Assembly (NCBI GenBank): GCA_000597885.1
Contig: CP004371.1
Coordinates: forward strand, 3,488,501-3,552,500
Source of the DNA: Flammeovirgaceae bacterium 311
GTDB taxonomy: Bacteria > Bacteroidota > Bacteroidia > Cytophagales > Cyclobacteriaceae
Direction of reading: 5' to 3'
Length of the DNA: 64,000 nt
Shown piece after piece: positions 6,349 through 25,531 of this stretch. The stretch's first letter is position 1. The number at the start of each line of letters is the position of its first letter. The translations under genes were made by a program, and so were the position numbers. The notes under the pieces were generated by a model. The model saw only the letters and a program-made list of their open reading frames with translations, searched no databases and was not told the DNA's origin.

Positions 6349-6391
6349 GTGAACGCTATAGTTTATTGAGCAGAAGGCCACCTCACAGGCA

Positions 6392-7804
6392 CTATTTTCG
6401 TGCTTGAATGATCAACTGGCCGGGCAGCGAATAATTTTTAGAGGCATCATCCACTACCAGCACCCAGTCTTCGCCATACCTGCTTTTAGGCGGTGTAAAT
6501 TCAATAACTCCTCTCTGGCTGTAGGTACCGGCTTCTGTCACTTCGCCGTTTTTGGGATTGTACCAGTGGGCTATAAATCTCCTGCCTGAGATCTTGGAGG
6601 TATTGACTGTAAAGCCTTTTCCCTGGGTAGTGTATACCATGAGGTAGTCCTTGCCCCGGGTGGCCTGTATGCGGTCTCCAATTGACCTGGCATCACCAAT
6701 AATGCTCTGGTCCGGAACACGCTCCATAATGGGGCGGGACTCCATTAACCTTCTTAAGTACTTCATCTGGCCTGCGCCGGGCAGATCCATAGCTATATAC
6801 CAGTAATAGCCTGGCTGATGGCTTGGGGCGCGGCCCGGGGCATAAAACTGCCAGATAGGATTACTGCCATAGGTATGGCCAAAAGCGCCGGCAAAAACCG
6901 TCAGGTAGGCATGTTTACGAACATCGTATGCAGTTCCTACGCCCAAGTCCTTGTTGTTGAAACATATCCCGATATCTTCGTAGATCGTTTCTCCATCAAT
7001 GATGGGCTTTACCGGATTCAGCTGGTACACGCTGAATACTTTTTCATCAACATTGTTATCGCGGCAGTGCCCCGTCTGCAGCATGTTAAAATCCAGCCAT
7101 TCTTCCTGATGAAAATAGTCGGCAGAACCACCGTCTTTTTCCGATCCGGTAGGTTGTGGATGATAGGTGAACAGGGCTTTGTCATGGCCACCCACACCTT
7201 CTGCTATGCCGTTGGCCATGGCGCTCCAGATGGCCTTGTCGTTATCATCCCTGGGGTTTCTGTCGCCTCCAATGATCCAGATAATGTTTCTTTGCCATTT
7301 ATAGCGGTTACCCAGCCACTTCCCGTAGGCAAAAGCATTCTGTGGGGTAAACACCTCAGGACCTGTGCCCCATTGTAAGCGGTTTACTTTGTCGCCCCAG
7401 GTAGGCAGCAAACCAATATACATGCCCAGGCTGGCAGCTTCCTTAATGATGAAATCCACATGCTGAAAATAAGCATCTCTGGGCCGGGCAGGGTCCATGC
7501 TTTCCAGCGGAAGTTCGCCATACGGATTAGGTACCCGCAGGCCATCCATTTCTGCCAGCGCTACAGCCTGCACCACATTAAAGCCTTTTTCGGCCCTGTT
7601 CCTTAGGTAGCTGGTTGCCTCCTCGCGGGTTAGCCGATGGAATAATTCCCAGGCAGTATCGCCCATCCAGAAAAAGGGCTTTCCACTCTCCGTTTCCAGG
7701 TACCTGTTATTGCTGCTTACCCTCAGGCGCTCTGGTTGCTGGGAGAAAGCTGTATGGACGATTACTAAACCTAGTATTAGTGTGGCTAATAATTTCTTAC
7801 ACAT
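6392..7804 (-). CDS. GH140-type apiosidase (DUF4038 plus C-terminal beta-sandwich)
   Basis: The protein has 470 residues, the normal family length, with a signal peptide (LLATLILGLVIVHTAFS, then Q). Residues 28-350 form the DUF4038 TIM barrel, opening with RYLETESGKPFFWMGDTAWELF. WIIGGDRNP carries D181 and IIDGETIYED carries E272, in the positions of the acid/base and nucleophile reported for the Bacteroides apiosidase BT1012. The C-terminal domain (FIAHWYNPKNGEV, YGEDWVLVV) matches the PF12904-type sandwich. Known GH140 members cut the apiose bond in rhamnogalacturonan-II side chains. It is the fourth gene after the SusCD hairpin. The family call is strong; the actual sugar is inferred, supported by an apionate-type catabolic operon across the divergent promoter region. 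Confidence 0.85.
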   Translation of the reverse strand: MCKKLLATLILGLVIVHTAFSQQPERLRVSSNNRYLETESGKPFFWMGDTAWELFHRLTREEATSYLRNRAEKGFNVVQAVALAEMDGLRVPNPYGELPLESMDPARPRDAYFQHVDFIIKEAASLGMYIGLLPTWGDKVNRLQWGTGPEVFTPQNAFAYGKWLGNRYKWQRNIIWIIGGDRNPRDDNDKAIWSAMANGIAEGVGGHDKALFTYHPQPTGSEKDGGSADYFHQEEWLDFNMLQTGHCRDNNVDEKVFSVYQLNPVKPIIDGETIYEDIGICFNNKDLGVGTAYDVRKHAYLTVFAGAFGHTYGSNPIWQFYAPGRAPSHQPGYYWYIAMDLPGAGQMKYLRRLMESRPIMERVPDQSIIGDARSIGDRIQATRGKDYLMVYTTQGKGFTVNTSKISGRRFIAHWYNPKNGEVTEAGTYSQRGVIEFTPPKSRYGEDWVLVVDDASKNYSLPGQLIIQARK

Positions 7805-7839
7805 ACTATAGTAGTCTGTTTGGTTATTTAGGCGATAAG

Positions 7840-10689
7840 TTATTTTGTGTTCCTGTCGGCTAATGGTTCCTGGTCAAAAAAAAGGTGCGCATCACCCTCT
7901 AAGCCAAGTATTGTATTTTTATACCGGCTGCTCCACCGCAGAGCTGTAGCATCGTCCTTAAGGCTTTTGGCATAATTGGCCAGCGCGGTGGTGTGCTTGA
8001 TAGTAAGCTGATTCTCGCCCTCTTTCAGGGCGTCTCCTACCGGAAATTTCAGGCTTCCATACCAGTTTGTTCCTAAAAGCTTACCGTTCAGATAAACTTC
8101 TGTCACTCCCCGGTTTGCTTTTTCCAGCGTGATCCAGGCGCCTTTTTCATCAGCATTGAAACGTGTTGAATAGGTGATGGTACCGGCAAAGCTGCTGAGC
8201 GGTTCATCGGAGTCCATGCTGAAAGGAGTTAGGGTATCCATAGTACGGCTGAAAGTAGTCCCGTTCACATGGTTGAATGCTACCTCCCAGGGTCCGCTTA
8301 GCGTCTGAAAGCTTTTGCCTGGCTTGCTGCTGGCTGTTTTTGCATGCTGCTTTTCCGTCTCCTCATCTTGCGGTTCAAAAACAATCAGCAGCGATTGTAA
8401 CGGATCCAGTTCCAGGTTTACGGCCTGCCCGTTCTTTTCAAATTCAGCAACAGTTCTTGTTCCATCTTCAGGATTCCAGACCCATGCGGTCTTTTTCTCA
8501 TGTGCAAAAACAACCGGCACGCTTACTGTTTCCTTTTTATTGGAGTTTACAAAGAAATAAACATCCCTGTCGTTCGCTCTTTTGGCAATTTGAAAGACAT
8601 TCTTATCCGGCTGCACAACCTTTAGCTGTGGCTGGATATTAATCGATTCAAGCACTCGCATGGTCCAGGTAAGCAGCTGGTCTTCATCAACCGGCCCGCT
8701 GGTATTGATTACCTGATCAGGGTACTCATGCAGCAGTTCTCTAAAAGTGTTCCTGATTGCCTGATCGTTTTCCGTAGCGTTTTTAAAGCCTAGCGCCTTG
8801 TTTGGCACTTTGTCAACCAGGAGCAGCTTTCCTCCTTCTTTTACATACTTAAGCAGCGCTGTAGCGGTTTCCGGCAATACCGAAGCCACATCTGTAAGCA
8901 CAATGGCCTCGTACTGCATAGGACCATATTTCAGGGTACCACCAGATACATCTCCGTCTATGATAATTTGTTCGTTGATGTAATCGCAGGAGCTGCCGGC
9001 CTGGCTCAGGGGCTCCCAAAGCCGGTTGGCATACCAGGGGGTGAGATGAAAGGGCACCCTGGCAAGGCCTTTTTCAGACCATATATCACCTGCAGGAGCC
9101 ATAACGGCTATTTGCCTAAGCGGCTGGCTGTTCTGAAAAACATAGGAGAGCCTGGAATTATAATCGGTCCATCTCTTAAAATAAGGCCACCATGTATTTT
9201 GCTCACTGAAGTAGGAGCCGTAGCGAATCCATCCCGGAAAGCCCGCTTCCACAGGTGAATAGTTATAGCCATGGAGCACAGAGTGGTTCATGCCGGTAAT
9301 AAAGTTCATATCATCATGACGCTTTATTTCTTCCAGCGAAGTCTTGAAAACACCACCTGTGTTGGTCATCGATTCAACGCTAACAATCTTTCTGCCTTTC
9401 AAATGTCCGCCAGACGCCGCATACATATTCCAGGACATGTATCCATGCCCCTGGTTCCATACATATTCGTCGGTTTCCATATCAATGGTGTACAGCCAGT
9501 TGTTGCTTTCCGGCATATCAGCGATCAGGTTGGCTTCGCTAAGGCCCATCAAAAAGGGAATTCCATAAGCCTGGTAGCGGCAAATCAACCCGTTATCCGT
9601 ACAATATTGCTGAAAGGGCTTCACAAAATTTTCGATGAAAACATCTACCAGCAGTTTGTTGTAATCGTACCTTACTCTTCTTAGATCTGCCTTAAATGCC
9701 TCGGAATAACTGTTCTCCTCATAGCCTGTGTGTGGTTCATAGAAAACAAATGGCAGGTAAGTGGTTAAGTGATAGCCATAGGTCTGGAAGAAAATCTCCT
9801 GCAGCTCATCGGTCCAGTTTGCCCCCGCAAGCTCAATGCTGTCACAGAACAGCGCCCGTAGCAATTCATTCAGCGGCACCCCTGTATCTTCACTGATTTT
9901 CTGGAGGCGGTTCAGGTACGCTAAGGTTACTTCCTTATCGTAGTGATTCATAACCGGCCCTGCAGCACCCTTGGCACCATGCATCACTTCCCTGTGGCCA
10001 TGCAGTAAAATTCCGTATCTAAGTTCATGATTTCCCTTAGGAACAGTATACTTCAGCGACTGCCCTTTATTAAATTCCTCCAGTAAATCAATCCCCTCCT
10101 GTGGCCCTGCAGCATTCACCGGCACAAGCCTCATATAAAACATCCGCTTCTCCAGCGGGGCTTCCTCATGCTTTTGCACCAGGGCGTCGTGCGCCTTTGT
10201 GTAGAGGGCATCCAGGTTTTCTTCAATTGTTTCTCCTCCTTTAACGGGGATGCTATGCGACAAAACCTTCTGAATGGTTTCTTCCTTTTTCAGAAACTCC
10301 CCACCGAAGGGCCAGCCGGAACCAACAATGATATCAGAGATCATGCCCCTTGTCTTAGCTTCCTGGCTGGCAAACTGCAGCATTTGATTCCATTCTTTGC
10401 TAAGCCACTCAATAGGCTGGGTGCCTACATCTTTCGCTTCATCAGGCATGGCAATCGGATTGATCTCCACGCCTCCTATACCAGCCTCATTCATAACAGT
10501 CAGCTGCCGGCTTAATTCTTTTTTATCTAAATGGTTGCCATTCCACCACCACCTGATAAACGGTCGGGCTTCGGCAGGCGGATTTTTAAAGCCTTCATAC
10601 AAATTATCTGCTGATAAGGTTTCAGCAGGTTGCTGGCAGCCTAAAAACCCAAACAGTACAATAAAAGAGAATATGGAAATCTTCTTCAT
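7840..10689 (-). CDS. GH106 alpha-L-rhamnosidase lipoprotein
   Basis: The start at 10689 is preferred: AGGTGA lies 5 bp upstream and the product begins MKKISIFSFIVLFGFLGC, a clean lipoprotein signal. A longer reading to 10731 would put 14 residues before it. The protein has 949 residues. PFIRWWWNGNHLDKKELSRQL is the family N-terminal signature of GH106, followed by GGVEINPIAMPD, SGWPFGGEF and a C-terminal galactose-binding-like sandwich (GAWITLEKANRGVTEVYLNG, GTNWYGSLKFPVG). GH106 enzymes release alpha-L-rhamnose with inversion, for example from rhamnogalacturonan-II. It follows the sulfatase by 51 bp and precedes the GH140 gene by 35 bp, so co-transcription is expected. A second rhamnosidase family (GH78) in the same operon suggests two kinds of rhamnosyl linkage. 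Confidence 0.92.
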   Translation of the reverse strand: MKKISIFSFIVLFGFLGCQQPAETLSADNLYEGFKNPPAEARPFIRWWWNGNHLDKKELSRQLTVMNEAGIGGVEINPIAMPDEAKDVGTQPIEWLSKEWNQMLQFASQEAKTRGMISDIIVGSGWPFGGEFLKKEETIQKVLSHSIPVKGGETIEENLDALYTKAHDALVQKHEEAPLEKRMFYMRLVPVNAAGPQEGIDLLEEFNKGQSLKYTVPKGNHELRYGILLHGHREVMHGAKGAAGPVMNHYDKEVTLAYLNRLQKISEDTGVPLNELLRALFCDSIELAGANWTDELQEIFFQTYGYHLTTYLPFVFYEPHTGYEENSYSEAFKADLRRVRYDYNKLLVDVFIENFVKPFQQYCTDNGLICRYQAYGIPFLMGLSEANLIADMPESNNWLYTIDMETDEYVWNQGHGYMSWNMYAASGGHLKGRKIVSVESMTNTGGVFKTSLEEIKRHDDMNFITGMNHSVLHGYNYSPVEAGFPGWIRYGSYFSEQNTWWPYFKRWTDYNSRLSYVFQNSQPLRQIAVMAPAGDIWSEKGLARVPFHLTPWYANRLWEPLSQAGSSCDYINEQIIIDGDVSGGTLKYGPMQYEAIVLTDVASVLPETATALLKYVKEGGKLLLVDKVPNKALGFKNATENDQAIRNTFRELLHEYPDQVINTSGPVDEDQLLTWTMRVLESINIQPQLKVVQPDKNVFQIAKRANDRDVYFFVNSNKKETVSVPVVFAHEKKTAWVWNPEDGTRTVAEFEKNGQAVNLELDPLQSLLIVFEPQDEETEKQHAKTASSKPGKSFQTLSGPWEVAFNHVNGTTFSRTMDTLTPFSMDSDEPLSSFAGTITYSTRFNADEKGAWITLEKANRGVTEVYLNGKLLGTNWYGSLKFPVGDALKEGENQLTIKHTTALANYAKSLKDDATALRWSSRYKNTILGLEGDAHLFFDQEPLADRNTK

Positions 10690-10740
10690 GAAATCACCTA
10701 ATAGAATACACTTACTTATTCGAACATACATTCCGCTGCA

Positions 10741-12273
10741 CTACTGTCTTCTCAGATCAGGGTGTAGTGCCCACTCATACCTTCGCTGCTTATCAAAATG
10801 AGGGTTGGGCTTTGGAAATTCAGCTTTAATTTCTTTTTGCCAATCCTTTAAGAGCGTAAGCAACTCATCTGCTTTTTCCGGGTAATGACTTGCCAGATTG
10901 GTAGACTCGCTAATGTCAGTCTTTAGGTTAAAAAGTAATATTTCTCCAGTCATGAAGTTCTGGATCAGTTTCCAGTCTCCTTTTCTGACTGCGCCGGCTG
11001 GTACATCGTGATGGAATACCGGATAGTGCCAAAAAATAGCGCGTTCTTGATCCGGGTTTTCTCCATGTAATTCTTTTACAACCGACTTTCCGTCCAGGGG
11101 TACGTTTTTAGGCGGCCTGACACCTGCCAGTTCTAAAAAAGTAGGAAAGAAGTCTACACTGGTAACAAGCGCATCATTTTTAGTACCGGGCTTAATTTTC
11201 TGTGGCCACTTTACAATCATGGGCACTCGTATGCCACCTTCGAACACAGTACCTTTTTCATTTCTTAAAGGTGCGTTAGAGGTAGCGATAAATTTTAAAG
11301 GATCTTTGTCTTTGTTGTAGGGAACCTTCTCATGCCCCTGTACATGTATAATATCCATTCTATCTGACACAGACCAGTCGTTTCGACTGGTTTCATAATC
11401 ATGCTCCGTAACCAGGCCGCCATTATCTGAATAAAACACTACGACAGTGTTTTCGCTAAGACCAGTCTCCTTCAGTTTTTTCAAAACACTGCCCACACTT
11501 CTATCGAGGTGCTCTATCATGGCCGCATAAATAGCGTTGCTTGGATAAAGACTGTCCTTTTCCTTATTCAGGTACTTATTGATCAGGTCAGCATCAGCAT
11601 TCAGCCTCACATGCACATCGTAATGAGACAGTACCAAAAACAAGGGCCGATCTTTATGTTTGTCGATGAACTGCATGCCAAATTTGGTAATCTGCTCATT
11701 GAACCTTTCTTCAGCAAATTCTTCCCTTTCAGGCAAAAACTTCACATTATAATATCCCTGTCCAATATTGGCTTCATCGAAGCCTTGTTGCAGGGGATGG
11801 TACTTTATGACTTCTTCTTTTGGCATATGCCAGGTGTCACCCAGGTGCCATTTACCAAAGAACCCGGTAGCATAGCCGGCAGATTTCAGCGCTTCGGCAA
11901 TGGTGGTAACTTCGGCCGGTAAATATTGGGTTCGGTTATTGGGCACTTGCACTTCCTCAAAAGGCCTGTGGTGGCCAGGTATGTGGGCTACAATTCCTAG
12001 TCTTGCAGGGTACTGGCCGGAAATAATAGCAGCTCTTGCAGGAGAGCAAACAGGGCTTGCTGAATAAGCATTGGTAAAAAGCATTCCTTCTGAAGCCATG
12101 CGGTCCAGATTTGGTGCCTCATTGAATTTGTTGCCATACGATGGCAAATCAGACCAGCCAAGGTCGTCGGCCAAAATGAGAATGATGTTAGGCTTCTTAT
12201 TTACCTGTGCAAAACAAGAATCAAACGGCAACAGCCCCACCCATATAATAGACAAAATGAAAAGCTTCCTCAT
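10741..12273 (-). CDS. Family S1 (formylglycine-dependent) sulfatase
   Basis: ATG at 12273 is preferred over the TTG just upstream. The protein has 510 residues with a signal peptide ending near FDSCFA. PNIILILADDLGW supplies the metal-binding Asp pair (D36, D37). CSPAR at residues 76-80 fits the C-x-[PA]-x-R motif whose Cys is turned into formylglycine; SGQYPARLG follows as usual. YSDNGG and the C-terminal GDWKLIQN agree with the alkaline-phosphatase fold. It removes a sulfate ester from a carbohydrate in the periplasm. A formylglycine-generating enzyme must exist elsewhere because none is visible here. Its place as first gene after the SusCD hairpin suggests the target carries sulfate, which land-plant RG-II does not; this points to a marine or modified glycan. 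The exact S1 subfamily cannot be read by eye. Confidence 0.92.
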   Translation of the reverse strand: MRKLFILSIIWVGLLPFDSCFAQVNKKPNIILILADDLGWSDLPSYGNKFNEAPNLDRMASEGMLFTNAYSASPVCSPARAAIISGQYPARLGIVAHIPGHHRPFEEVQVPNNRTQYLPAEVTTIAEALKSAGYATGFFGKWHLGDTWHMPKEEVIKYHPLQQGFDEANIGQGYYNVKFLPEREEFAEERFNEQITKFGMQFIDKHKDRPLFLVLSHYDVHVRLNADADLINKYLNKEKDSLYPSNAIYAAMIEHLDRSVGSVLKKLKETGLSENTVVVFYSDNGGLVTEHDYETSRNDWSVSDRMDIIHVQGHEKVPYNKDKDPLKFIATSNAPLRNEKGTVFEGGIRVPMIVKWPQKIKPGTKNDALVTSVDFFPTFLELAGVRPPKNVPLDGKSVVKELHGENPDQERAIFWHYPVFHHDVPAGAVRKGDWKLIQNFMTGEILLFNLKTDISESTNLASHYPEKADELLTLLKDWQKEIKAEFPKPNPHFDKQRRYEWALHPDLRRQ

Positions 12274-12316
12274 CAACCAATTTTGTTAATTGCCCTACAA
12301 ACCATTTAAACTTGCT

Positions 12317-12363
12317 TAAAAAAATTAAGGGGGAGGCAACGGGAATCCTCGCCTCCCCCTTAA
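12317..12363 (-). terminator. Strong hairpin with U-tract between susD and the enzyme genes
   Basis: A perfect 13-bp inverted repeat (arms 12325-12337 and 12351-12363, loop 13 nt) is followed on the minus strand by seven U residues (12318-12324). It fits an intrinsic terminator. Because enzyme genes of the same PUL continue 45 bp further on, partial read-through would give high SusCD and lower enzyme expression. Confidence 0.85.
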
Positions 12364-12386
12364 CTTCATTATTAAAAGTTCAAAAA

Positions 12387-14027
12387 TTACCAGCCTGGAT
12401 TCTGAACCAATTGCGGATTCAGATCAACCTCAGATGCCGGAATAGGCCATAGGTAATCTTTCTCTTCTCTAAATACCTTTGTTACAATTCTTTGGCCACG
12501 GAAATCAAGAACTTCATGGTTTAAGCCAAAGATAGGATCAGTTGTATGGGCAGTTCTCCACCTTCTTACATCAAAATAGCCATGAGATTCGAACATCAGC
12601 TCCCGGAAGCGCTCCAGCCGGATCTCTCTTTGTAGCTCTGCCTGAGATAAGGATTGAGGAATATCAGCCACACCAGCCCGGCTTCTTACTTTGTTGATAG
12701 CTTCAAAAACATCAGAAGAAGGGCCGCTTGCTTCATTTTTTGCCTCTGCATACATCAGCAGTACATCAGCAAAACGTATCAGCGGATAATTTACCGGAGA
12801 GTTCTGTCTAAGCGGGGCATCTTCTCCCGGAGAAACAAACTTTCTGATAGGTATTAACGCCTCGTTCGGAAAGGTAGTGGTAAGCGCAGGAGGATTCATG
12901 CTACTGGTACCTATTGGCCAGTAATATTTATGCACTACTCCCTGTGCTCCAACAAAGGTAGAACCCGGCAAAATAGCAGTGGCATGTAAACGCGGATCGG
13001 CATCTGCATAAGTTGTCTGGTACCAGTCCACAATCTCTGGTCCGTACTCTGCTTCGCTATCATAATCAGCCCTTTGCGGCATGGTTGATCTGTCGATAGG
13101 GGTACCATCTTTATTGGTGAATACCTCCAGACCTATGTGTGAAACTGTTGCCCAGTCACCGCCAAGTCTTGGGTGATTTCTGAACGCAAACCTGTGATCA
13201 AACCAGCTGCCTAAGCCAGGCTCAGATATGTATTGAATTTCGAATACAGATTCTACGTTATTCTGCGTCTGATAATAGAAATGATCATCATATTCTGCGG
13301 TAAGGCCATAGGAGAAAGGTGCGCTCATTAGTTTTTCAAACTCAGCTGCCGCTTTTTCCCACTGCTGATCATACAAATAAGTTTTCCCAAGCATTGCAAT
13401 TGCAGCCCCTTTTGTAACCTTACCTAATTGTGCGTCAGGATAAGACAAAAGCAGCTTTTCTGAAGCGTCTTGGAAATCTGCTATAATGAAATCTCTAACC
13501 TCTTCCGCAGTATTTCTAGCAGTATATGTTTCATTTACCGGAACCTTTCCATCGAAAATTTGTACACCGCCCCAAAGCTGCCATAGGTAGAAATATGACA
13601 AGCCTCTGAAAAACTTAGCCTCACCAATCATGCGGTCTCTCACCTCAGGATCAATGTTCTCATTTCCCTCTAAGCCCGTAATAGCATCGTTTGCATAACG
13701 AACAGTTCTATAAAAGCCTCTCCACATGTTACCAAACAGCTGATCTCTGGCAGTGGCCACACCAGACAAATGGTCTAAGCCAAATACGTTTCTAACAATC
13801 GTGTACCCATAAGGAGATAAGGTTGCTGTATAATACCAGGGATGCGACCAGGCTTCGTGAGCAAAGGTACGATACACGCCATTGATGGCCATTTCTGCAT
13901 TTGCTTCTGTTTTCCAGATATCAGCACTTGATATTGCATGATAGGGCTGCCTGTCCAGAAAATCATCTTCGCAGCTCGTAACCAGGAGCAATAAAATGAT
14001 AATATTTATTGATAATATTTTTTTCAT
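12387..14027 (-). CDS. susD: SusD/RagB-family glycan-binding lipoprotein
   Basis: The 546-residue protein starts with a lipoprotein signal (IIILLLLVTSC, Cys about residue 19) followed by EDDFLDRQP, the typical N-terminus of SusD proteins. AEMAINGVYR, the TPR-like helices with EAKFFRGLSYFYLWQLWGG, and the C-terminal FADVLLMYAEAKNEA and REIRLERFRELMFESHGYFDVRRW are family hallmarks. It caps the SusC pore on the cell surface and binds the oligosaccharide. The gene starts 20 bp behind susC, as is standard. Ligand identity cannot be read from sequence. Confidence 0.97.
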   Translation of the reverse strand: MKKILSINIIILLLLVTSCEDDFLDRQPYHAISSADIWKTEANAEMAINGVYRTFAHEAWSHPWYYTATLSPYGYTIVRNVFGLDHLSGVATARDQLFGNMWRGFYRTVRYANDAITGLEGNENIDPEVRDRMIGEAKFFRGLSYFYLWQLWGGVQIFDGKVPVNETYTARNTAEEVRDFIIADFQDASEKLLLSYPDAQLGKVTKGAAIAMLGKTYLYDQQWEKAAAEFEKLMSAPFSYGLTAEYDDHFYYQTQNNVESVFEIQYISEPGLGSWFDHRFAFRNHPRLGGDWATVSHIGLEVFTNKDGTPIDRSTMPQRADYDSEAEYGPEIVDWYQTTYADADPRLHATAILPGSTFVGAQGVVHKYYWPIGTSSMNPPALTTTFPNEALIPIRKFVSPGEDAPLRQNSPVNYPLIRFADVLLMYAEAKNEASGPSSDVFEAINKVRSRAGVADIPQSLSQAELQREIRLERFRELMFESHGYFDVRRWRTAHTTDPIFGLNHEVLDFRGQRIVTKVFREEKDYLWPIPASEVDLNPQLVQNPGW

Positions 14028-14047
14028 TGTTAATTCTATTTAAATAA

Positions 14048-17104: not shown

Positions 17105-17837
17105 TCATTAAATAATTAAAGGTGGCAGAAGTTGAGATTAGACTTGTTGATCGAGATTTCCTCTAGGGTCATATAAAATTATTTATGTATTTTATTTGAT
17201 CTGTCCTGATCTGTCATGTTTGAACATTAATTTGATGATGTTTATTAGATCAGGGCAGCATTAGCGTGAATTTCAGTTGAATAAAACAGCAAGAGGTAAG
17301 ATGCTCCAGGGTTCTTGTACTACAGTGACTGGCGCAGGATCTCTTGATTGTTGAAGCGGTATTGAGCTCTGCCTGTAAATAAATTCAAATTGCCCGGTGA
17401 CTCTGCTTACGCTTTCCCCTGACCTTTCCAGGTACTGCCAATCGGGTAAAAACACTTAATAACTATGCTGTTTTCGCTTATAACCTAGTGTGCTGCATTA
17501 GAAAATCTTTGAACAGATCAGAAGCAGACCAGCAGGTTTGACTAAAACTGAAGAATGCCAACACCCCCTTTGCAGCAGTTATTTTCATCTCACTTCGGTT
17601 GCAGCCTACTGAAGATCATCTCTTCCCATACTAATATTGAATAAATCAACCTTGCACTCTGTCTGCACCTTAACCACGAACCAGTTCATCATGAAAAAAA
17701 AGATACCTGCATACAGAATACCCAAAACAGAGAAGCCCCCATTGTATTATGCGTTTTTTTTCATATGTTCATTTCATTTAGTTGTTCAACCTTTGAATGA
17801 ATCACTAATCCGTTTTAAGAATCTATTAAAACGTACA

Positions 17838-17848
17838 TTTGTATACTT
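17838..17848. promoter_or_regulatory. Putative GntR operator 1 (TTTGTATACTT)
   Basis: The GTATAC core at 17841-17846 lies inside a near-palindrome and directly overlaps the last base of a TAnnTTTG element (17834-17841). It is centred 23 bp, about two helical turns, from operator 2, a spacing that suits cooperative binding of dimers. Confidence 0.45.
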
Positions 17849-17860
17849 TTTTATCTTCCT

Positions 17861-17872
17861 ATTGTATACGTT
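17861..17872. promoter_or_regulatory. Putative GntR operator 2 (ATTGTATACGTT)
   Basis: The GTATAC core is at 17864-17869, with one matching TTG/CAA-type half (ATTGTA) and one weaker half. It pairs with operator 1. Confidence 0.45.
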
Positions 17873-17960
17873 ATAAAAGTAATTTTAAATATGTTATGAT
17901 GCAACCGTTTCCGTTAGGATTTTTTTCTAAAATTTTAATGCCAAACAGCTGCTGCTGCCA

Positions 17961-17970
17961 GAGTATACAA
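17961..17970. promoter_or_regulatory. Putative GntR operator 3 (GAGTATACAA)
   Basis: The GTATAC core at 17963-17968 has a good right half (ATACAA) and a poor left half. It is the weakest of the four sites in this region. Confidence 0.3.
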
Positions 17971-18020
17971 ATAGAAGGGTCTATAGAAAGCTAAATCTCA
18001 AGCAGTGCTTACAATTATAT

Positions 18021-18030
18021 TTGTATACAA
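18021..18030. promoter_or_regulatory. Putative GntR operator 4, perfect palindrome TTGTATACAA
   Basis: This is a perfect 10-bp palindrome overlapping a TAnnTTTG element at 18016-18023 and lying 76 bp before the first permease gene. Binding here would block a promoter placed on that element. It differs from the motif at 22648 and 25520 by one central base. Confidence 0.55.
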
Positions 18031-18057
18031 TTATATAGAACTGATTTACACAAATAA

Positions 18058-18065
18058 TATATTTG
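18058..18065 (+). promoter_or_regulatory. Putative -7 element TATATTTG of the ABC operon
   Basis: It matches the Bacteroidota -7 consensus TAnnTTTG and lies 41 bp before the ATG at 18106. No clear -33 TTTG is seen at the expected distance, so the overlapping site at 18016 is an alternative. Confidence 0.35.
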
Positions 18066-18105
18066 CTATTATACGAAACAGTCATTATTTTTCAATAAAA
18101 AATCA

Positions 18106-19050
18106 ATGATGCATAAAAAAATTTTGTTCTACCTATGCCTTCTCTACTATGTGATCATGGCACTCTTCGTGCCGGGTTTCTTTTCGATAAATAATTCCTG
18201 GAACTTAATTTTTAATTTGCTACCCCTGCTTATCGCAGCTGTTGGACAGACCTATGTAATTATTACCGGAGGCATCGATCTCTCAGCCACTGCTGTTATT
18301 GCTACCTGTAGCGTAGTGGGTGGCTATATCATGAGTTCTGATTTTGGTCCTGATTTGGGCAGCATACCCTTAATAATAATAGGAGTAGCTGCCATGATGG
18401 CAATAGCAATGATCATTGGCCTGATCAACGGACTTTCGGTTTTGATGCTTGGCATGCCTTCTTTCATGGTTACGCTTGCCACCATGATTTTTTTTAGTGG
18501 TCTGGCTGTTTGGCTCACCCAGTCGCAAAACATCTACAACCTGCCAGAGGAATTCAATAACATGTTCTACACATCTGTATTAGGCATTCCAATCCCCATT
18601 GTGATTGGTGCAATCCTACTGTTATTGAGTTTTTTCATTCTTAATAAAACAGTCTTAGGCCAGTGGATATACTCCGTTGGCATGAATGTGAAGACTTCAA
18701 AGGTATCTGGCGTCCGCGTGGGGAGCACCACAGTGTTTACTTATGTATTTAGCGGATTCTGTCTTTCCATAGCAGCAATACTATATACCTCAAGACTGGA
18801 AACAGGCTCTCCTGTAATGGGGCAGAATATTTTACTGGACATAATAGGTGCTGTTATTATTGGAGGCACCAGTTTGTACGGAGGGAAAGGCAAAATTTAC
18901 ATGACAGTACTGGGTGCAATCTTTATTATCTTGTTAGATAACAGCCTGAACCTGATTGGGCTATCCTTTTTCATGATCATGATCATCAAAGGAGCTGTGA
19001 TTCTCACCGCTGTACTATTAAATGACTGGAAAAAAAAATCAACTATCTGA
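18106..19050 (+). CDS. ABC sugar importer permease 1 (RbsC/BPD_transp_2 family)
   Basis: This 314-residue integral membrane protein has about eight to ten hydrophobic segments. VIITGGIDLSATAVIA and GGTSLYGGKGKI are the RbsC-family motifs (GGIDLSVG and GG.S..GG.G). It would form the inner-membrane channel together with the second permease at 20613. Two ATG codons lie at 18106 and 18109. It is the first gene of the plus-strand operon and overlaps the ATPase gene by 29 bp. The substrate is not readable from sequence; downstream genes suggest apiose, apionate or a related branched sugar acid. Confidence 0.92.
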   Translation: MMHKKILFYLCLLYYVIMALFVPGFFSINNSWNLIFNLLPLLIAAVGQTYVIITGGIDLSATAVIATCSVVGGYIMSSDFGPDLGSIPLIIIGVAAMMAIAMIIGLINGLSVLMLGMPSFMVTLATMIFFSGLAVWLTQSQNIYNLPEEFNNMFYTSVLGIPIPIVIGAILLLLSFFILNKTVLGQWIYSVGMNVKTSKVSGVRVGSTTVFTYVFSGFCLSIAAILYTSRLETGSPVMGQNILLDIIGAVIIGGTSLYGGKGKIYMTVLGAIFIILLDNSLNLIGLSFFMIMIIKGAVILTAVLLNDWKKKSTI

Positions 19051-20605
19051 GCCAATGTTTTTAGAACTTCAACATATCACGAAAAAATTTGATGATGTTA
19101 CAGTGCTTAAAGACATCAATCTGGAGTTGAAAAAGGGATATATCCTGGGCTTGATTGGTGAAAATGGAGCCGGCAAATCTACGCTTATGAACATCCTTGG
19201 GGGAATCCATCAACCCAGCGGAGGCCGGATTCTTCTTGAAGGCAGGAGTTTCAGTCCAATGTCTGCAACGGATGCTATCCGGGCAGGAATTTCTTTTGTA
19301 CATCAGGAGCTCAACCTTTTTTACAATCTCAGTATATTAGAGAATCTGCACATCACTGGCTTTCCTGAAAAAAAATTTGCGGGTATTCCCTACATAGATC
19401 TGAAAACCGCAAAAAAGAATACTGAAAATTTACTGAATGCAGTAGGGCTTAGTATTGATCCCCTGAAAAAGGTGGGAGAGCTATCAAGTGCACAAAAGCA
19501 GCTGGTTGAAATCGCCAAAGCACTCAGCACCTCTCCCCGGCTAATCATCTTTGATGAGCCCAAAACATCCCTTACCAGGCATGAAGCAGATAATCTTTTT
19601 AAATTAATTCAGGCGCTAAGATCGCAACAAATTACCATCATCTATATTTCACACAATCTTGATGATGTTATTCAGCTGGCCGACCAAATAGCTGTAATGA
19701 GAGACGGTGTATTAATAAACACCTATAACAGAGACGATAACTTTGGTGTAAGCGATATCATCAATGATATGATTGGAAGGGAAATCAATAACTTCTATCC
19801 AGCGCGAAAAACCACACCAGAGGATAGCGCTGTTTTTCAGGCAGTAGGCCTTTGTAAAAAAGGCTTATTGAACAACATCACTTTTAATTTAAAGAAAAAG
19901 GAGGTTTTGGGATTTTATGGACTTGTTGGTTCCGGCAGGTCGGAAATGGCCCGTGCAATTTACGGGCTAGATCCTTTCGATAGTGGCAGCATTATCTGGA
20001 AAAACCAAGAAGTAACCCACCCTTCCCCTGCCAGGTGGATTAAAAACAAGGTGGCCTTTCTAACAGAAGACAGAGGCGAGGACGGACTTTTAGCGGAAGA
20101 TAGTATTGAAAAGAACATTGCACTGGCATCATTGCCAAACTATTCTCCAGGGCCGGGCAGCATCATTAACTGGGAGAAATTAAGAGATCATATTCTGGAA
20201 ACAGCAAAAGCCACAAAAATAAAATACCATTCCCTCACAGAACAAACTGTTGAAGTGCTCAGTGGAGGAAACCAACAAAAAGTGATATTATCAAAATGGC
20301 TGCTCTTAGAACCGGAACTGCTCATCATTGATGAGCCCACAAAAGGAATAGACATCGGGGCCAAACATGATATATATGAATTGGTAAACAAGCAGGTGGA
20401 AAACGGCATGAGCGTGATAATGATTTCTTCTGAAATTGAAGAACTCATTGGCTTGTGCGACAGAATACTTGTCATGAAACAGGGTACCATATCTAATGAA
20501 TTCTATAAGCATGATTTCAAGCGCTCTGCAATACTAGAAGCGGCACTACACTCAACGGAAGAAGAGGCCAGCCCCGAAAGGACAACAGAAAAAATACTCA
20601 GCTAG
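19022..20605 (+). CDS. ABC sugar importer ATPase with two NBDs (RbsA/MglA type)
   Basis: The 527-residue protein has the usual duplicated layout. NBD1 has Walker A GENGAGKST, signature LSSAQKQLVEIAKAL and Walker B LIIFDEP. NBD2 has the degenerate Walker A GLVGSGRSEM typical of RbsA, signature LSGGNQQKVILSKWL and Walker B LLIIDEPTKGID. In NBD1 the usual DEPT is DEPK, an uncommon change next to the catalytic Glu. It energises import through the two flanking permeases. The start lies inside permease 1 and the stop is 7 bp before permease 2, so translation is probably coupled. Confidence 0.95.
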   Translation: MTGKKNQLSEPMFLELQHITKKFDDVTVLKDINLELKKGYILGLIGENGAGKSTLMNILGGIHQPSGGRILLEGRSFSPMSATDAIRAGISFVHQELNLFYNLSILENLHITGFPEKKFAGIPYIDLKTAKKNTENLLNAVGLSIDPLKKVGELSSAQKQLVEIAKALSTSPRLIIFDEPKTSLTRHEADNLFKLIQALRSQQITIIYISHNLDDVIQLADQIAVMRDGVLINTYNRDDNFGVSDIINDMIGREINNFYPARKTTPEDSAVFQAVGLCKKGLLNNITFNLKKKEVLGFYGLVGSGRSEMARAIYGLDPFDSGSIIWKNQEVTHPSPARWIKNKVAFLTEDRGEDGLLAEDSIEKNIALASLPNYSPGPGSIINWEKLRDHILETAKATKIKYHSLTEQTVEVLSGGNQQKVILSKWLLLEPELLIIDEPTKGIDIGAKHDIYELVNKQVENGMSVIMISSEIEELIGLCDRILVMKQGTISNEFYKHDFKRSAILEAALHSTEEEASPERTTEKILS

Positions 20606-20612
20606 ATTATTT

Positions 20613-21563
20613 ATGAAAAATTTTAACCAGTATTCTTCGATCATCCTGTTGCTCCTAATCGTCATTGCCTTTACCATCATCTCACCCCAGTTTTTTTCAG
20701 TTCAGAATTTTATCAACATTCTCATCCAGGGCTCAGCGCTTGCCATTGTAGCCACTGGAATGACATTTGTGATTTTAACCAGGGGAATTGATCTGTCAGT
20801 AGGTTCAACGATGTTTTTAGCTGGCGTAATATCAGGAAAGATGGTTGTAGCCGGCACAAACCTTTGGCTGGCATGCCTGGTGGTTCTTTTAATCGGCATT
20901 ATGTATGGCTATGTAAACTCATTCTTTATTTACCGTTTTAAAGTAGTTCCGTTCATTGTAACCCTTGCAACCTTCTACATGGGCAGAGGCATAGGTCTGT
21001 TAATCTCCGAAACCCGCGCTGTTAACTTACCTGATACCTTTCTATTGATAGGAACCTCCCGCATCTTTGGCATACCTTTTCCCATAGCCATTTTATTTGT
21101 TGTAGTTCTTATTGCGCACCTTGTGCTTACTAAAACCAGTTACGGCAGAAGGATTTATGCCGTGGGGAATAACTCGGAAAAAGCCAGAAAGGCGGGGCTG
21201 CCCATTAAAAAGATTGTACTATCTGCCTATATTATTTGTGGCTTTTGCGCTGCTCTGGGTGGTCTTGTGGCCATAGCGCAGTTAGGGGCCATCTCCCCTT
21301 CATTTGGCCTGCAAAGCGAATTTATGGCCATAGCTGCAGTTGTCTTAGGCGGTACAAGCTTGTTTGGTGGTAAAGGAAATGTGTTTCCAGGAACTTTGAT
21401 TGGCGCTTTAACCATTCAATCTTTACAAAATGGGCTTGTTATGATCAATGCCAATCCTTACCTATATCCAATAGTAACAGGTCTGGTGATATTTGTAATC
21501 GTACTCATTGACAGCTTAAAGCATAGAAGAAATTTCAGATCACTCCAAACCATCCCCTCATAG
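20613..21563 (+). CDS. ABC sugar importer permease 2 (RbsC family)
   Basis: The 316-residue multi-pass membrane protein contains VILTRGIDLSVGSTMFLAG and GGTSLFGGKGNVFPG, the RbsC signatures, and NNSEKARKAGLPI, the cytoplasmic loop that contacts the ATPase. It is clearly distinct from permease 1, so the importer is probably a heterodimer, as in some autoinducer-2 and xylitol-type systems, unlike the RbsC homodimer. It sits 7 bp after the ATPase and 5 bp before the binding protein. Confidence 0.94.
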   Translation: MKNFNQYSSIILLLLIVIAFTIISPQFFSVQNFINILIQGSALAIVATGMTFVILTRGIDLSVGSTMFLAGVISGKMVVAGTNLWLACLVVLLIGIMYGYVNSFFIYRFKVVPFIVTLATFYMGRGIGLLISETRAVNLPDTFLLIGTSRIFGIPFPIAILFVVVLIAHLVLTKTSYGRRIYAVGNNSEKARKAGLPIKKIVLSAYIICGFCAALGGLVAIAQLGAISPSFGLQSEFMAIAAVVLGGTSLFGGKGNVFPGTLIGALTIQSLQNGLVMINANPYLYPIVTGLVIFVIVLIDSLKHRRNFRSLQTIPS

Positions 21564-21568
21564 AAGTT

Positions 21569-22537
21569 ATGAAGATCTATCAAATGATAATATTGCTTTC
21601 ATTCGTGATATTATGCAGTTGTCACAACGAGGAGAAGGAAGGCATCACCATTGGGATTTCCTTTGAAACGCTTCAGACTGAATACTGGGTAGCCAGCATG
21701 GATGCACTAAAAAAAGAATGTGCGGAAAGAAATATAAAAGTGATAGAAGCGGTAGCAAACGGAGATGCCAACCGTCAGTTTGAACAGGTAAATAACTTTA
21801 TCTCAAAAGGTGTTGACGGTATTATTGTAGCACCAAAAGATGCCTACACTGTTATCCCCATTATTAAAGCTGCAAACAGGGCCAATATTCCAATTGGTAT
21901 TTACAACCGTATGCCCGCCAAAAACACCGGCCTGTTTACTACTGTTGTTGCCGATAACTACGAAATAACCAAACGCACTGTACAACATATTTGTGAGCTT
22001 GCAAAAAGCACAAACAAAAAGCATAAAGCCATGATTCTTATTGGCGACCTTGGAGATATAAATGCTGTGGAAAGAAGAAGGGGGTTCAACGATGCAATTT
22101 CTGAATATCCTGATGTTATCGAACTTGTGGCAGAAGTACCTACAGAATGGAATCAGGAAAAAGCCCTTGCCGGTGCCACTAATTCTCTACAGGCTAATCC
22201 TGACATCAATCTAATCTTTACATCGTCTGATTTTCTTTTTCCATCTCTTATCTCTGCTCTGAAAAATACCGGAAAGTATCATAAAATAGGGCATCCCGAT
22301 CATGTACTGTTAGCTGGTTTTGATGGAGATGCAACCGCCTATAGCCTTCTAAAAAATGGATATCTGGACGCTGATGGTGTTCAGGACCTTAATCTTGAAT
22401 GCCGGGAATTGATCAAGGCGGTTTTAGGAAAAGATAGTACCAACAAACCTACAGTGATAGCCGATCCAGGCTTTGTCATACACCAAGAAAATCTATCCGA
22501 AATGGCCGGCAGAATGTGGGGGGCTCAACTGCAGTAA
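21569..22537 (+). CDS. Sugar-binding lipoprotein of the ABC importer (RbsB/Peripla_BP_4 family)
   Basis: The 322-residue protein has a lipoprotein signal (MIILLSFVILCSC, Cys about residue 18). TIGISFETLQTEYWVASMDAL, GVDGIIVAPKDAYTVIPII, AMILIGDLGDINAVERRRGF and VLLAGFDGD mark the two-lobed periplasmic-binding-protein type 1 fold. It would present ligand to the two permeases from the outer face of the inner membrane. Ligand specificity is unknown. The following gene begins 114 bp later, behind an operator-like site, so a second promoter may exist there. Confidence 0.93.
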   Translation: MKIYQMIILLSFVILCSCHNEEKEGITIGISFETLQTEYWVASMDALKKECAERNIKVIEAVANGDANRQFEQVNNFISKGVDGIIVAPKDAYTVIPIIKAANRANIPIGIYNRMPAKNTGLFTTVVADNYEITKRTVQHICELAKSTNKKHKAMILIGDLGDINAVERRRGFNDAISEYPDVIELVAEVPTEWNQEKALAGATNSLQANPDINLIFTSSDFLFPSLISALKNTGKYHKIGHPDHVLLAGFDGDATAYSLLKNGYLDADGVQDLNLECRELIKAVLGKDSTNKPTVIADPGFVIHQENLSEMAGRMWGAQLQ

Positions 22538-22645
22538 CAACATTATTTTTAGTATCCGAAATCGTGCCGCAAGTATAGCAGGCGCGGGCATCTGCAGCAG
22601 AATTATATTTTAGTGTCTACAGGAAAATATATAATTTGTTTGTAT

Positions 22646-22659
22646 AATTGTATGCAAAC
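22646..22659. promoter_or_regulatory. Putative GntR operator 5 (AATTGTATGCAAAC) at the TIM-barrel gene start
   Basis: This 14-mer is identical to the one at 25518-25531 upstream of the GntR gene. It overlaps the likely ATG at 22652 and is preceded at 22639 by a related TTTGTATAAT. Binding here would act on a local promoter or block passing polymerase. Confidence 0.6.
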
Positions 22660-23500
22660 AAACTATATATTGAATATAGGTATCAGCAGTTATGCATACG
22701 CCTGGTCAGTGGGCACTCCTGGCCGGCTTCCGGATTTACCGCTCACAGCTTTTGGCTTGATTGATAAGGCGGTAAGGCTGAGTGTAAATTATGTACAATT
22801 GTGTGACAACATAGCGCTCGATTGCTTTACAAAGCATGATCTGGAGGAATTGTTTCAATATGCGCTGCAAAACAATGTCCATATAGAAGTAGGCGCTTTG
22901 GGGTTAACAGCAGCAAGGCTGGAACAATACATTGAAATAGCCAGGGTGTTAAAATCTAAAATATTACGATTTGTTATAGACAAGGGTAATTATACGCCAT
23001 CGATCCCTCAGACGGCTGGCATCATCAAAGATTTTACCGCTGTCTTAGAAAAAGAAGGTATTTACCTGGCTATTGAAAATCATGACAGACTACAAAGCCG
23101 GGATTATTTAAAGCTGCTCCACAAAACGCAAAGCAACTTTGTAAGAATATGTCTTGACACAGTAAATTCATTAGGCGCGGGAGAAGGTATTGCTACTGTG
23201 CTAAATGAATTAGGTCCCTGGACAGTTAATTTACATGTTAAAGAGTATGCCATCAGACGTGTTGAAAATAAGATGGGCTTTTTGGTGGAAGGCAAACCAT
23301 TAGGTAAGGGGCAGCTACCATTGCCAGATGTTCTTAAAAAAATATCACCCTTATGTAAAACTGCTGTTCTGGAACAGTGGGTGCCCTTTACCGGAAAGCT
23401 GGAAACTACAATACAAAAAGAAGAAGACTGGGCATCTGAAAGCATCAATCACCTGAAGAAAATCATGAGCCAGTCTCCTGTTGTGCTTATGAGCCAGTAG
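22652..23500 (+). CDS. Xylose-isomerase-like TIM barrel protein (candidate 3-oxo-isoapionate decarboxylase type)
   Basis: I choose ATG at 22652 (MQTNYILNIGISSYAYAW) over the GTG at 22613, because family members begin a few residues before this first strand. The protein has 282 residues, cytosolic. The AP_endonuc_2/PF01261 metal site is complete: E142 (AIENHD), D169 (CLDT), H195 (NLHVKEY) and E241 (VLEQW). Such proteins isomerise, epimerise or decarboxylate sugars and sugar acids. To my knowledge the D-apionate pathway enzyme OiaC (3-oxo-isoapionate to L-erythrulose plus CO2) belongs to this fold, and the next gene resembles the preceding pathway enzyme. The specific reaction is therefore an inference; a plain sugar epimerase is the alternative. 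Confidence 0.75.
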   Translation: MQTNYILNIGISSYAYAWSVGTPGRLPDLPLTAFGLIDKAVRLSVNYVQLCDNIALDCFTKHDLEELFQYALQNNVHIEVGALGLTAARLEQYIEIARVLKSKILRFVIDKGNYTPSIPQTAGIIKDFTAVLEKEGIYLAIENHDRLQSRDYLKLLHKTQSNFVRICLDTVNSLGAGEGIATVLNELGPWTVNLHVKEYAIRRVENKMGFLVEGKPLGKGQLPLPDVLKKISPLCKTAVLEQWVPFTGKLETTIQKEEDWASESINHLKKIMSQSPVVLMSQ

Positions 23501-23580
23501 GCTCAAGCCTGCTCCTGAATAAAGTTATACTTGCTTTTTAAGCTGTGGGTACTGAAAAAAAATTTAATCCATCACCTGAT

Positions 23581-24405
23581 ATGAAAACATTAACTATAGT
23601 AGGAGCCGGCGGTAAGATGGGACTAAGATGCGTGGAAAATCTTGCGTCTTCCAATTACATATCGTATTACCTCGAGATCAACCCTGAAGCTATCCGCAGG
23701 CTTCAGGAAAAAAATATTACTGTTTCCCTTCCAGATAAGATAGCAATATCCGACATAGTCATCCTGGCAGTTCCTGATAAAGCAATCAGAGAAGTTTCCA
23801 GGGAGGTTGTACCAAAAATGAAATCTGGTGCCTTATTGGTAACACTTGATCCTGCAGCTCCTCTGGCAGGCTATCTGCTTCACCGGGATGATCTTGCTTA
23901 TTATGTTACGCACCCCTCCCATCCTTCGGTGTTCAACTGGGAAGATTCAGAAGAAGCTTACCGGGATTATTATGGCGGAATCAAAGCAAAACAAACAGCA
24001 GTATCCGCCCTGATGCACGGAGAGGAAAAAGACTGGCAAACGGGAGATGAAATAACCAAATGCATCTACAAGCCTGTCACCAAAAATCACAGGCTGACTG
24101 TTGAGCAAATGGCTATTTTAGAACCAGGGTTTTCGGAAACCCTATGCTCTACCTGTATCAAAAAAGTCAGAGAAGCCCTTGATGTTGTGGTAGAAAAAGG
24201 TGTACCCGAAGAAGCTGCAAGAGATTTTATTTTAGGTCATATTAATATTCAGTTAGCTGTACTGTTCAATGAGCTGCCCATTCAGTTTTCTGATGCAGCC
24301 ATCAAAGCCCTGAACAGAGCCGAATCTATACTTTTCAAAGATGACTGGAAACTTATATTCGAAAAGGAGAATATTCATGAACAAATCAAAGCTATCACAG
24401 AATAG
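23581..24405 (+). CDS. Rossmann dehydrogenase with PGDH_C domain, D-apionate oxidoisomerase-like
   Basis: ATG at 23581 is preferred over the GTG at 23545 because the Rossmann strand starts at once (MKTLTIVGAGGKMGLRCVEN, a GxGGxMG nucleotide loop). The protein has 274 residues. VILAVPDKAIREVSREV follows the second half of the NAD-binding domain; from about residue 115 (YVTHPSHPSVFNWED) the C-terminal part resembles the PGDH_C (PF16896) domain with conserved His and Lys residues. This is the architecture of ApnO, which turns D-apionate into 3-oxo-isoapionate with NAD+. ApnO is the best fit given the TIM barrel beside it and the GH140 gene across the control region, but other branched or C4 sugar acids are possible. 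Confidence 0.7.
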   Translation: MKTLTIVGAGGKMGLRCVENLASSNYISYYLEINPEAIRRLQEKNITVSLPDKIAISDIVILAVPDKAIREVSREVVPKMKSGALLVTLDPAAPLAGYLLHRDDLAYYVTHPSHPSVFNWEDSEEAYRDYYGGIKAKQTAVSALMHGEEKDWQTGDEITKCIYKPVTKNHRLTVEQMAILEPGFSETLCSTCIKKVREALDVVVEKGVPEEAARDFILGHINIQLAVLFNELPIQFSDAAIKALNRAESILFKDDWKLIFEKENIHEQIKAITE

Positions 24406-25472: not shown

Positions 25473-25517
25473 TAGTGCCCTAAATAATTTCTTTGCTAAT
25501 ATACTTAATCCGCTTGA

Positions 25518-25531
25518 AATTGTATGCAAAC
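25518..25531. promoter_or_regulatory. Putative GntR operator 6 (AATTGTATGCAAAC), autoregulatory
   Basis: It is identical over 14 bp to the site at 22646-22659 and centred on the TTGTATGCAA near-palindrome. Its place 46 bp before the regulator's ATG suits autorepression. Confidence 0.6.

Follow-up and report, generated by a model that had tools for sequence, protein, structure and literature searches.

The question raised by the 64,000-nt stretch of Flammeovirgaceae bacterium 311 DNA considered here (the window, G000:C1:3488501-3552500 of a single-contig genome of 6.67 Mb) is whether a predicted apiosidase, a divergent ATP-binding cassette (ABC) importer and a pair of apionate-type catabolic genes form one system for D-apiose, a rare branched sugar of plants. 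A preliminary description of the sequence had proposed such a dedicated system. The island is real and that observation is confirmed: judging from gene content and from the gene neighbourhoods of relatives, the locus is very probably an island for D-apiose acquisition and oxidative catabolism. The proposal gains from relatives of ApsD, ApnL, OiaK and OiaX and from a second ApnO, which were not seen in the preliminary description and sit 7.5-16 kb to the left of the window. Apiose dehydrogenase and apionolactonase had been reported as not seen; relatives of both are encoded just left of the window. The findings concern gene content, family matches and neighbourhood, while reactions and enzyme locations are taken from family members and known pathway chemistry.

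Two predicted catabolic arms around a SusCD locus

The polysaccharide utilization locus (PUL) comprises 11 minus-strand genes, its leftmost part extending past the left edge of the window (Table 1). The gene order is SusC, SusD, sulfatase, GH106, GH140, a DUF6298-like protein, a 989-aa protein and GH78, followed outside the window by sulfatase, GH43 and GH97. Genes of apionate catabolism border this PUL at both ends. All genes named in the preliminary description are long open frames, and the SusCD pair, the sulfatase, GH106 and GH140 were found on the minus strand by Pfam. The GH78 rhamnosidase does belong to this PUL, but it lies at 1-1784 and beyond the window and not within 6392-24405, where it had been placed. 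The GH140 protein covers positions 1-319 of the 320 in PF13204 and carries PF12904 at its C-terminus. Its closest solved chain is PDB 8t9w, named "Apiosidase" (597 bits), followed by 3kzs/5msy (284 bits), and it aligns with them over almost its full length. In other genomes GH140 genes (at most 65% identical) share a stretch with OiaC/ApnO. A second strong Apiosidase match in the genome (PF13204, 372 bits) is located at G000:C1:1998764-1999828.

Divergently from the PUL, the plus strand encodes two permeases, a double ATPase, a binding lipoprotein, an OiaC-like triosephosphate isomerase (TIM) barrel and an ApnO-like protein (ApnO2). The intergenic gaps are -29, 7, 5, 75 and 44 bases; therefore the six genes likely form a single operon. 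The importer, the barrel with its E-D-H-E site and the PGDH_C protein described earlier are all present by Pfam and alignment. The metal set (E142, D169, H195, E241) is identical in all 76 aligned relatives. ApnO2 shares 54% identity with the ApnO1 encoded in the OiaX cluster, aligns with PDB 5t57 at 272 bits, and is 46.9-49.5% identical to plasmid proteins among the matches listed (40 of 251 records); among these relatives, that of Shinella HZN7 lies in an OiaX operon. In genome G114 the TIM barrel and ApnO are fused in a 549-aa open frame with both Pfam domains (L035 9096-10745).

The left arm lies in region L005 (C1:3469001-3483000), and negative positions in Table 1 are window coordinates. 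Its ApsD-type protein has a Gfo/Idh/MocA fold and is encoded together with ApnO and ApnL; no NCBIfam model named apiose dehydrogenase matched it.

Table 1. Features of the island and its left extension, in window coordinates
Feature	Position	Strand	Family match or remark
Gfo/Idh/MocA oxidoreductase (ApsD-type)	-16219 to -15194	opposite to remaining left-arm genes	
RuBisCO-like protein, OiaX relative	-14887 to -13640		best NCBIfam model OiaX, 456 bits
Four-carbon acid sugar kinase, OiaK relative	-13647 to -12205		best NCBIfam model OiaK, 449 bits
ApnO1	-12177 to -11353		~11 kb left of window
Sulfatase inside left arm	-11090 to -9627		
674-aa protein, ApnL relative	-9577 to -7553		best NCBIfam model ApnL, 354 bits
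LacI regulator of left arm	-7566 to -6418		
GH78 alpha-L-rhamnosidase	1-1784 in window; whole gene ~-990 to 1784 (L004 13510-16284)	-	Pfam, 388 bits
989-aa protein	1823-4792	-	C-terminal Fib_succ_major (Pfam)
DUF6298-like protein, possible glycoside hydrolase	4837-6381	-	Pfam DUF6298, 37 bits
GH140 apiosidase (predicted)	6392-7804	-	Pfam Apiosidase, 393 bits
GH106 alpha-L-rhamnosidase	7840-10731	-	Pfam Glyco_hydro_106, 227 bits
Sulfatase, Cys type	10741-12276	-	Pfam Sulfatase, 210 bits; CSPAR motif at residue 77
SusD-type binding lipoprotein	12387-14027	-	Pfam SusD_RagB, 167 bits
SusC-type TonB-dependent receptor, first gene of the PUL	14048-17104	-	Pfam Plug, TonB_dep_Rec_b-barrel, CarbopepD_reg_2
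Four GTATAC palindromes, one a full TTGTATACAA	17841-18028	.	ahead of ABC operon; candidate GntR operator
ABC permease 1, ribose type	18106-19050	+	Pfam BPD_transp_2
Double ATPase of ABC importer	19022-20605	+	Pfam ABC_tran; relatives in apiose loci
ABC permease 2	20613-21563	+	Pfam BPD_transp_2
Sugar-binding lipoprotein of importer	21569-22537	+	Pfam Peripla_BP_4
OiaC-like TIM barrel, proposed 3-oxo-isoapionate decarboxylase	22613-23500	+	Pfam AP_endonuc_2
ApnO2, proposed D-apionate oxidoisomerase	23545-24405	+	NAD-binding domain; Pfam PGDH_C, 202 bits
GntR/FCD regulator, faces ABC operon	24783-25529	-	Pfam FCD and GntR

Relatives of the island in other genomes

In a set of 291 genomes of the same order, drawn evenly from a larger group, the window ApnO was matched in 19: its own genome, 12 that have true relatives (best place 49-55% identical) and six with short matches to the NAD-binding part only. 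No match was found in the 20 genomes of the same family that were listed. The neighbourhood maps of the 12 genomes (20 kb each, one reduced to 13 kb by a contig end) place ApnO beside varying mixes of ApsD, ApnL, OiaC-like TIM barrel, ABC importer, OiaX, OiaK and GH140; the maps of G004 and G096 hold little besides ApnL and ApnO. Together with the own genome, a strong TIM-barrel match (at least 364 bits) is present in 11 of the 13 and an OiaX match (407-517 bits) in five. Four genomes, the own included, have both, seven have OiaC without OiaX, and G054 has OiaX without OiaC; neither match was obtained in G096, whose assembly is fragmented and 7% contaminated. As seven genomes combine a strong OiaC match with no OiaX match, OiaC is their only candidate decarboxylase.

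The association is best seen in the loci fetched by the TIM barrel itself, namely the best 80 of 356 relatives from a genome-contig scan, many of them cut by contig ends. They span Bacteroidota, Verrucomicrobiota, Planctomycetota, Acidobacteriota, Chloroflexota and others. ApnO shares the stretch in 64 loci, an ApsD-like Gfo/Idh in 55, ApnL in 41, GH140 in 31, OiaK in nine and OiaX in eight; at least one of ApnO, ApsD and ApnL is found in 69. Among the 30 loci of at least 18 kb, ApnO is present in 27 and ApsD in 26.

As the TIM barrel had served to fetch these loci, a separate check of the importer was made by searching plasmids with its binding protein. The four best matches among 1,051 plasmid records (39.6-48.1% identity, two of them from the same strain) lie in apiose-type operons. 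The annotations of L165, L150 and L166 include a four-carbon acid sugar kinase, a RuBisCO-family protein, a Gfo/Idh and a PGDH_C or "semialdehyde dehydrogenase" protein, and for L150 this content was confirmed by comparison with reference proteins. In the unannotated L148 our own gene calls gave OiaX-, OiaK-, ApnL- and ApnO-like frames, and a Gfo/Idh was not called. The fifth match (29.8%) is in a locus without apiose-type genes. Among the 80 TIM-barrel stretches, 14 encode a binding protein of the window type, every one of them also with ApnO, ApsD or ApnL. Genes 41-62% identical to permease 1 occur in other apiose loci, and permease 2 has a 72% identical counterpart in the apiose locus L071 of Puniceicoccaceae K14. 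Another permease family recurs in 22 of the 80 loci, and its examined member (L093 7229-8230) matches Pfam Ureide_permease and Sugar_transport. This suggests a candidate alternative apiose transporter, the ABC importer being one of several solutions.

Trees were built by a quick method from 67 ApnO and 76 TIM-barrel rows left after length filters; genomes G055, G069, G180 and G193 were treated as duplicates of four among the 80 and entered the trees only once, without their G-handle rows. ApnO2 groups with proteins of Allomuricauda (75% identity) and Puniceicoccaceae K14 (69%) with support 100, and for the window TIM barrel the partners come from the same two (support 96). Both belong to families found mostly near ApsD, ApnL, GH140 or an apiose-type ABC importer, in line with the apionate-type assignment made earlier; a placement among enzymes of other sugar acids, named there as a refuting outcome, was not seen. 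In K14, three sulfatases and genes resembling ApnL and ApsD lie in one 20-kb stretch together with an ABC importer of the window type (55-72% identity). The grouping of ApnO1 is weak (support 85) and places it with 12 copies from Bacteroidota, nine of which stand beside OiaX or OiaK. The likeliest history suggested by these groupings is that the right arm arrived as a unit from a K14-like lineage and joined a resident OiaX-type system.

Several observations weigh against an oxidative apiose island. No NCBIfam model for ApnO matched either copy and none for OiaC matched the TIM barrel, both names being given from context and known pathways. The OiaX, OiaK and ApnL scores of the left arm are below the NCBIfam equivalog cut-offs (456 against 700, 449 against 700 and 354 against 750 bits), and by this measure the three proteins are relatives and not certified equivalogs. 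All five OiaX matches among the 13 genomes are likewise below the cut-off. The OiaX model at E 0.001 also matches five of 14 control genomes; therefore the weight rests on the bit scores of 407-517 and not on mere matches. Eight of the 80 TIM-barrel loci contain none of ApnO, ApsD, ApnL and GH140. OiaC and OiaX stand together in eight of the 80 stretches, which is unexpected if the branches were simply alternative. Finally, the kinase Dak1 was not found in any of the 13 genomes, two of which are less than 90% complete.

Proposed pathway and alternative assignments

In the oxidative pathway, D-apiose is dehydrogenated, opened as a lactone, isomerized and decarboxylated, and the gene names are used here in this sense. 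SusCD would take up an oligomer containing apiose and rhamnose, and in the periplasm GH106, GH78, the sulfatases and GH140 would trim it, freeing D-apiose to be carried to the cytoplasm by the ribose-type ABC importer. The ApsD-type Gfo/Idh dehydrogenase would then convert D-apiose to apionolactone, ApnL would open the lactone to D-apionate, and ApnO, present in two copies, would form 3-oxo-isoapionate. From here two branches are proposed: OiaC of the window would give L-erythrulose and CO2, whereas OiaK followed by the RuBisCO-like OiaX would give L-erythrulose 1-phosphate and CO2. The locus would join release, import and catabolism of apiose in one place, and it offers an importer, an operator and an enzyme set that can be tested.

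The locus also points to a widely shared OiaC route, in which the puzzle is the fate of L-erythrulose downstream. In Erwinia-like operons a kinase of the dihydroxyacetone kinase (DAK) family presumably takes L-erythrulose onward. A DAK kinase was found in none of the 80 TIM-barrel loci at the threshold used. Among gene clusters present in at least four of these loci no kinase was recognized except OiaK (three unlabelled clusters were checked with Pfam, others by eye or left). Because Dak1 was not found in the 13 genomes, the downstream part differs from the known OiaC pathway, and either the TIM barrel acts differently in these genomes or an unrecognized enzyme uses L-erythrulose. The own genome has two RpiB-type isomerase genes, which could serve the OiaX branch. 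In G177 a short-chain dehydrogenase/reductase (SDR) and a transketolase-like gene (L034 16831-19849) and RpiB (G177:C1:1806965-1807384) follow OiaC-ApnO at ~6 kb; these could be a tetrulose route without a DAK kinase. A wider scheme, which we put forward only tentatively and consider doubtful as a whole, is that both oxidative branches run simultaneously, fed by an undescribed sulfated apiose- and rhamnose-containing marine plant glycan or glycoside, and that the OiaC branch of Bacteroidota and Verrucomicrobiota ends via an unrecognized non-DAK tetrulose-consuming step.

The missing DAK-type L-erythrulose kinase would also fit a TIM barrel that isomerizes or racemizes a tetrulose or tetrulose phosphate further along the pathway, with decarboxylation being spontaneous or due to OiaX. 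Its fold family includes isomerases, and in eight of the 80 loci it stands beside OiaX. However, it shows no significant similarity to the TIM barrel in the EryC position of the erythritol-type locus of Rhizobium brockwellii, and assignment as an EryC-like tetrulose-phosphate racemase was rejected on this ground. Moreover, OiaC is the only post-ApnO candidate in the seven genomes without an OiaX match, and the fusion with ApnO fits consecutive steps, so that an isomerase function appears unlikely. The TAT-tagged TIM barrel at L005 566-1480 was considered as a second OiaC and discarded: it has no significant similarity to the window protein, and its match to an Erwinia TIM barrel is weak (24%, E 4e-4).

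It may also be supposed that the left arm alone (ApsD, ApnL, ApnO1, OiaK, OiaX) serves apiose, since a full OiaK/OiaX set exists independently of the window genes, and that the ABC-TIM-ApnO2 operon serves a related branched sugar acid or pentose. The moderate identity of ApnO2 to ApnO1 would agree with this, as would that of the binding protein to its counterparts in Shinella HZN7 (28%) and in the E. coli apiose cluster (26%). Yet K14 clusters relatives of the window ABC importer, OiaC and ApnO2 with ApnL- and ApsD-like genes, on plasmids, importers of this ABC type belong to OiaX-type operons, and GH140 and ApnO2-like genes occur together in other genomes. In addition, when this genome was compared with a binding protein from a further apiose locus of Bacteroidota, only the window binding protein matched. 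A division of this kind is distinctly improbable.

A further alternative is a PUL of the common kind, with rhamnosidases and sulfatases directed at some algal or plant glycan, which the apiose genes adjoin by chance; this is highly improbable. In its favour, neither GH106 nor GH78 was found in the 80 loci at the thresholds applied (a single locus has a GH78-like frame of 20% identity), SusC or SusD occurs in two of them (a third has a partial SusD match) and the GTATAC sites lie by the ABC start and away from SusC, but a strong GH140 sits inside the PUL with apionate genes at both flanks, and GH140 shares the stretch with the TIM barrel in 31 of the 80 loci. The non-oxidative isomerase-kinase-transketolase route is unlikely here because the best matches to E. 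coli AplK are just 24-26% identical.

Known systems, substrate and regulation

The left arm resembles the OiaK/OiaX pathway of Shinella, Rhizobium and strain LCG007, which also combine Gfo/Idh, ApnL, ApnO, a four-carbon acid sugar kinase and an OiaX-type RuBisCO-like protein; the Shinella and Rhizobium records further share a GntR-type regulator and a ribose-type ABC importer. In Shinella HZN7 one stretch holds ApnO, a ribose-type ABC importer, Gfo/Idh, an ApnL-like gene, a NanR-type regulator, an annotated OiaX and a kinase, and its ApnL-like and Gfo/Idh proteins are 30% and 41% identical to those of the left arm. In contrast to these systems, the present locus has two arms around a SusCD PUL, a second ApnO and an OiaC branch, and its left arm includes a sulfatase and a LacI regulator. 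LCG007 grows on D-apiose as sole carbon source, and the annotations in its cluster name apionolactonase, apiose dehydrogenase, apionate oxidoisomerase, 3-oxoisoapionate kinase and an OiaX-type decarboxylase (PMC11747546). Action of RuBisCO-like proteins on 3-oxo-isoapionate 4-phosphate is reported in PMC6302742, with reference to Carter et al. 2018.

The operon of Erwinia sp. E602, which we take to represent the OiaC-type route, has a TIM barrel of the same family (27% identical, with E-D-H-E in common) beside an ApnO-like gene. Unlike the present genome, where Dak1 was not found, it also contains a DAK-family kinase, a triosephosphate isomerase-like protein and RpiB. The isomerase-kinase-transketolase route for D-apiose is ascribed to Pectobacterium, with oxidoreductases replacing the isomerase in E. 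coli ST131 (PMC13001218). The ST131 cluster shares with our locus the sugar and a ribose-type ABC importer; the sequence differences are those given above for AplK and for the binding proteins. In two rhizobial loci (L006 4201-10834 and L010 2217-10617) an OiaC-like TIM barrel accompanies a tripartite ATP-independent periplasmic (TRAP) transporter, a split transketolase and an SDR; L010 has also a DAK-family kinase, and its transketolase is 30-35% identical to E. coli AptA/AptB. Judged by gene content, these loci put the TIM-barrel family to another use.

Bacteroidota are among the foremost degraders of plant glycans. With Bacteroides degradation of rhamnogalacturonan II (RG-II), of which the GH140 of PDB 5msy is presumably a part, the locus has in common GH140, GH106 and GH78 in a SusCD PUL. 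It differs from it in the sulfatases, in the attached apiose catabolic genes and in that no pectin backbone lyase or RG-II-specific hydrolase was recognized by Pfam among the 11 PUL proteins, other RG-II families being unsearched genome-wide. The absence of lyases stated earlier thus agrees with the scan, in which no lyase domain was found in these proteins at E up to 0.001. Two GH28 matches are located elsewhere in the genome, far from the PUL. RG-II as the substrate is unsupported by the PUL gene content. A possible substrate is sulfated plant material with apiose and rhamnose. Apiose is a constituent of pectic polymers and of over 1,200 plant metabolites (PMC10602602), and PMC7644952 describes apiogalacturonan in seagrass walls and, separately, sulfated galactans and sulfated flavonoids. 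Sulfatase frames were present in four of the 80 TIM-barrel loci, six frames in total, three of them in K14. In the open-access literature no account of an oxidative apiose route in Bacteroidota was found, most subscription papers being outside the search, and no open-access paper on GH140 with apiose was found. As far as gene content tells, a known oxidative D-apiose pathway is arranged here in a new way: it is combined with a SusCD/rhamnosidase/sulfatase PUL, and the OiaC and OiaK/OiaX branches occur in one genome.

The GntR/FCD protein likely controls the ABC-OiaC-ApnO2 operon, by its position and by analogy with rhizobial apiose-type operons, in which NanR/GntR genes are also present. Its presumed target is a set of four GTATAC sites within 188 bases, each with a TTGTATAC or GTATACAA half; such sites resemble GntR/FCD operators. 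Four sites were reached in none of 2000 first-order random sequences of the intergenic region, the motif having been picked after seeing it; in the 98.5-kb region as a whole there are 19 occurrences of GTATAC, where 11 would be expected. Control of both strands through one common operator was rejected, as the four sites are near the ABC operon only and none is near SusC.

As for the remaining PUL genes, the N-terminus of the sulfatase at 10741-12276 is signal-like, as judged by eye. The DUF6298-like protein is 21-22% identical over ~500 residues to proteins of two apiose loci (L095 and L142) and may constitute a glycoside hydrolase family of its own. The 989-aa protein has no relative at E 1e-4 among the open frames of the 80 TIM-barrel loci. 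To the left of the ApsD-type gene, and adjoined to it by a DUF5060/apiosidase-like protein, region L003 (C1:3454001-3474000) encodes at 7597-19306 a GH8, a GH43, two sulfatases, two SDRs and the TAT-tagged (twin-arginine translocation) TIM barrel; these carbohydrate genes may make up a second locus, directed at a glycan that is sulfated or rich in xylose. On the other side, beyond the GntR gene, the window encodes at 25763-27343 (minus strand) a 526-aa protein with VKOR and SPW repeat domains, unrelated to apiose.

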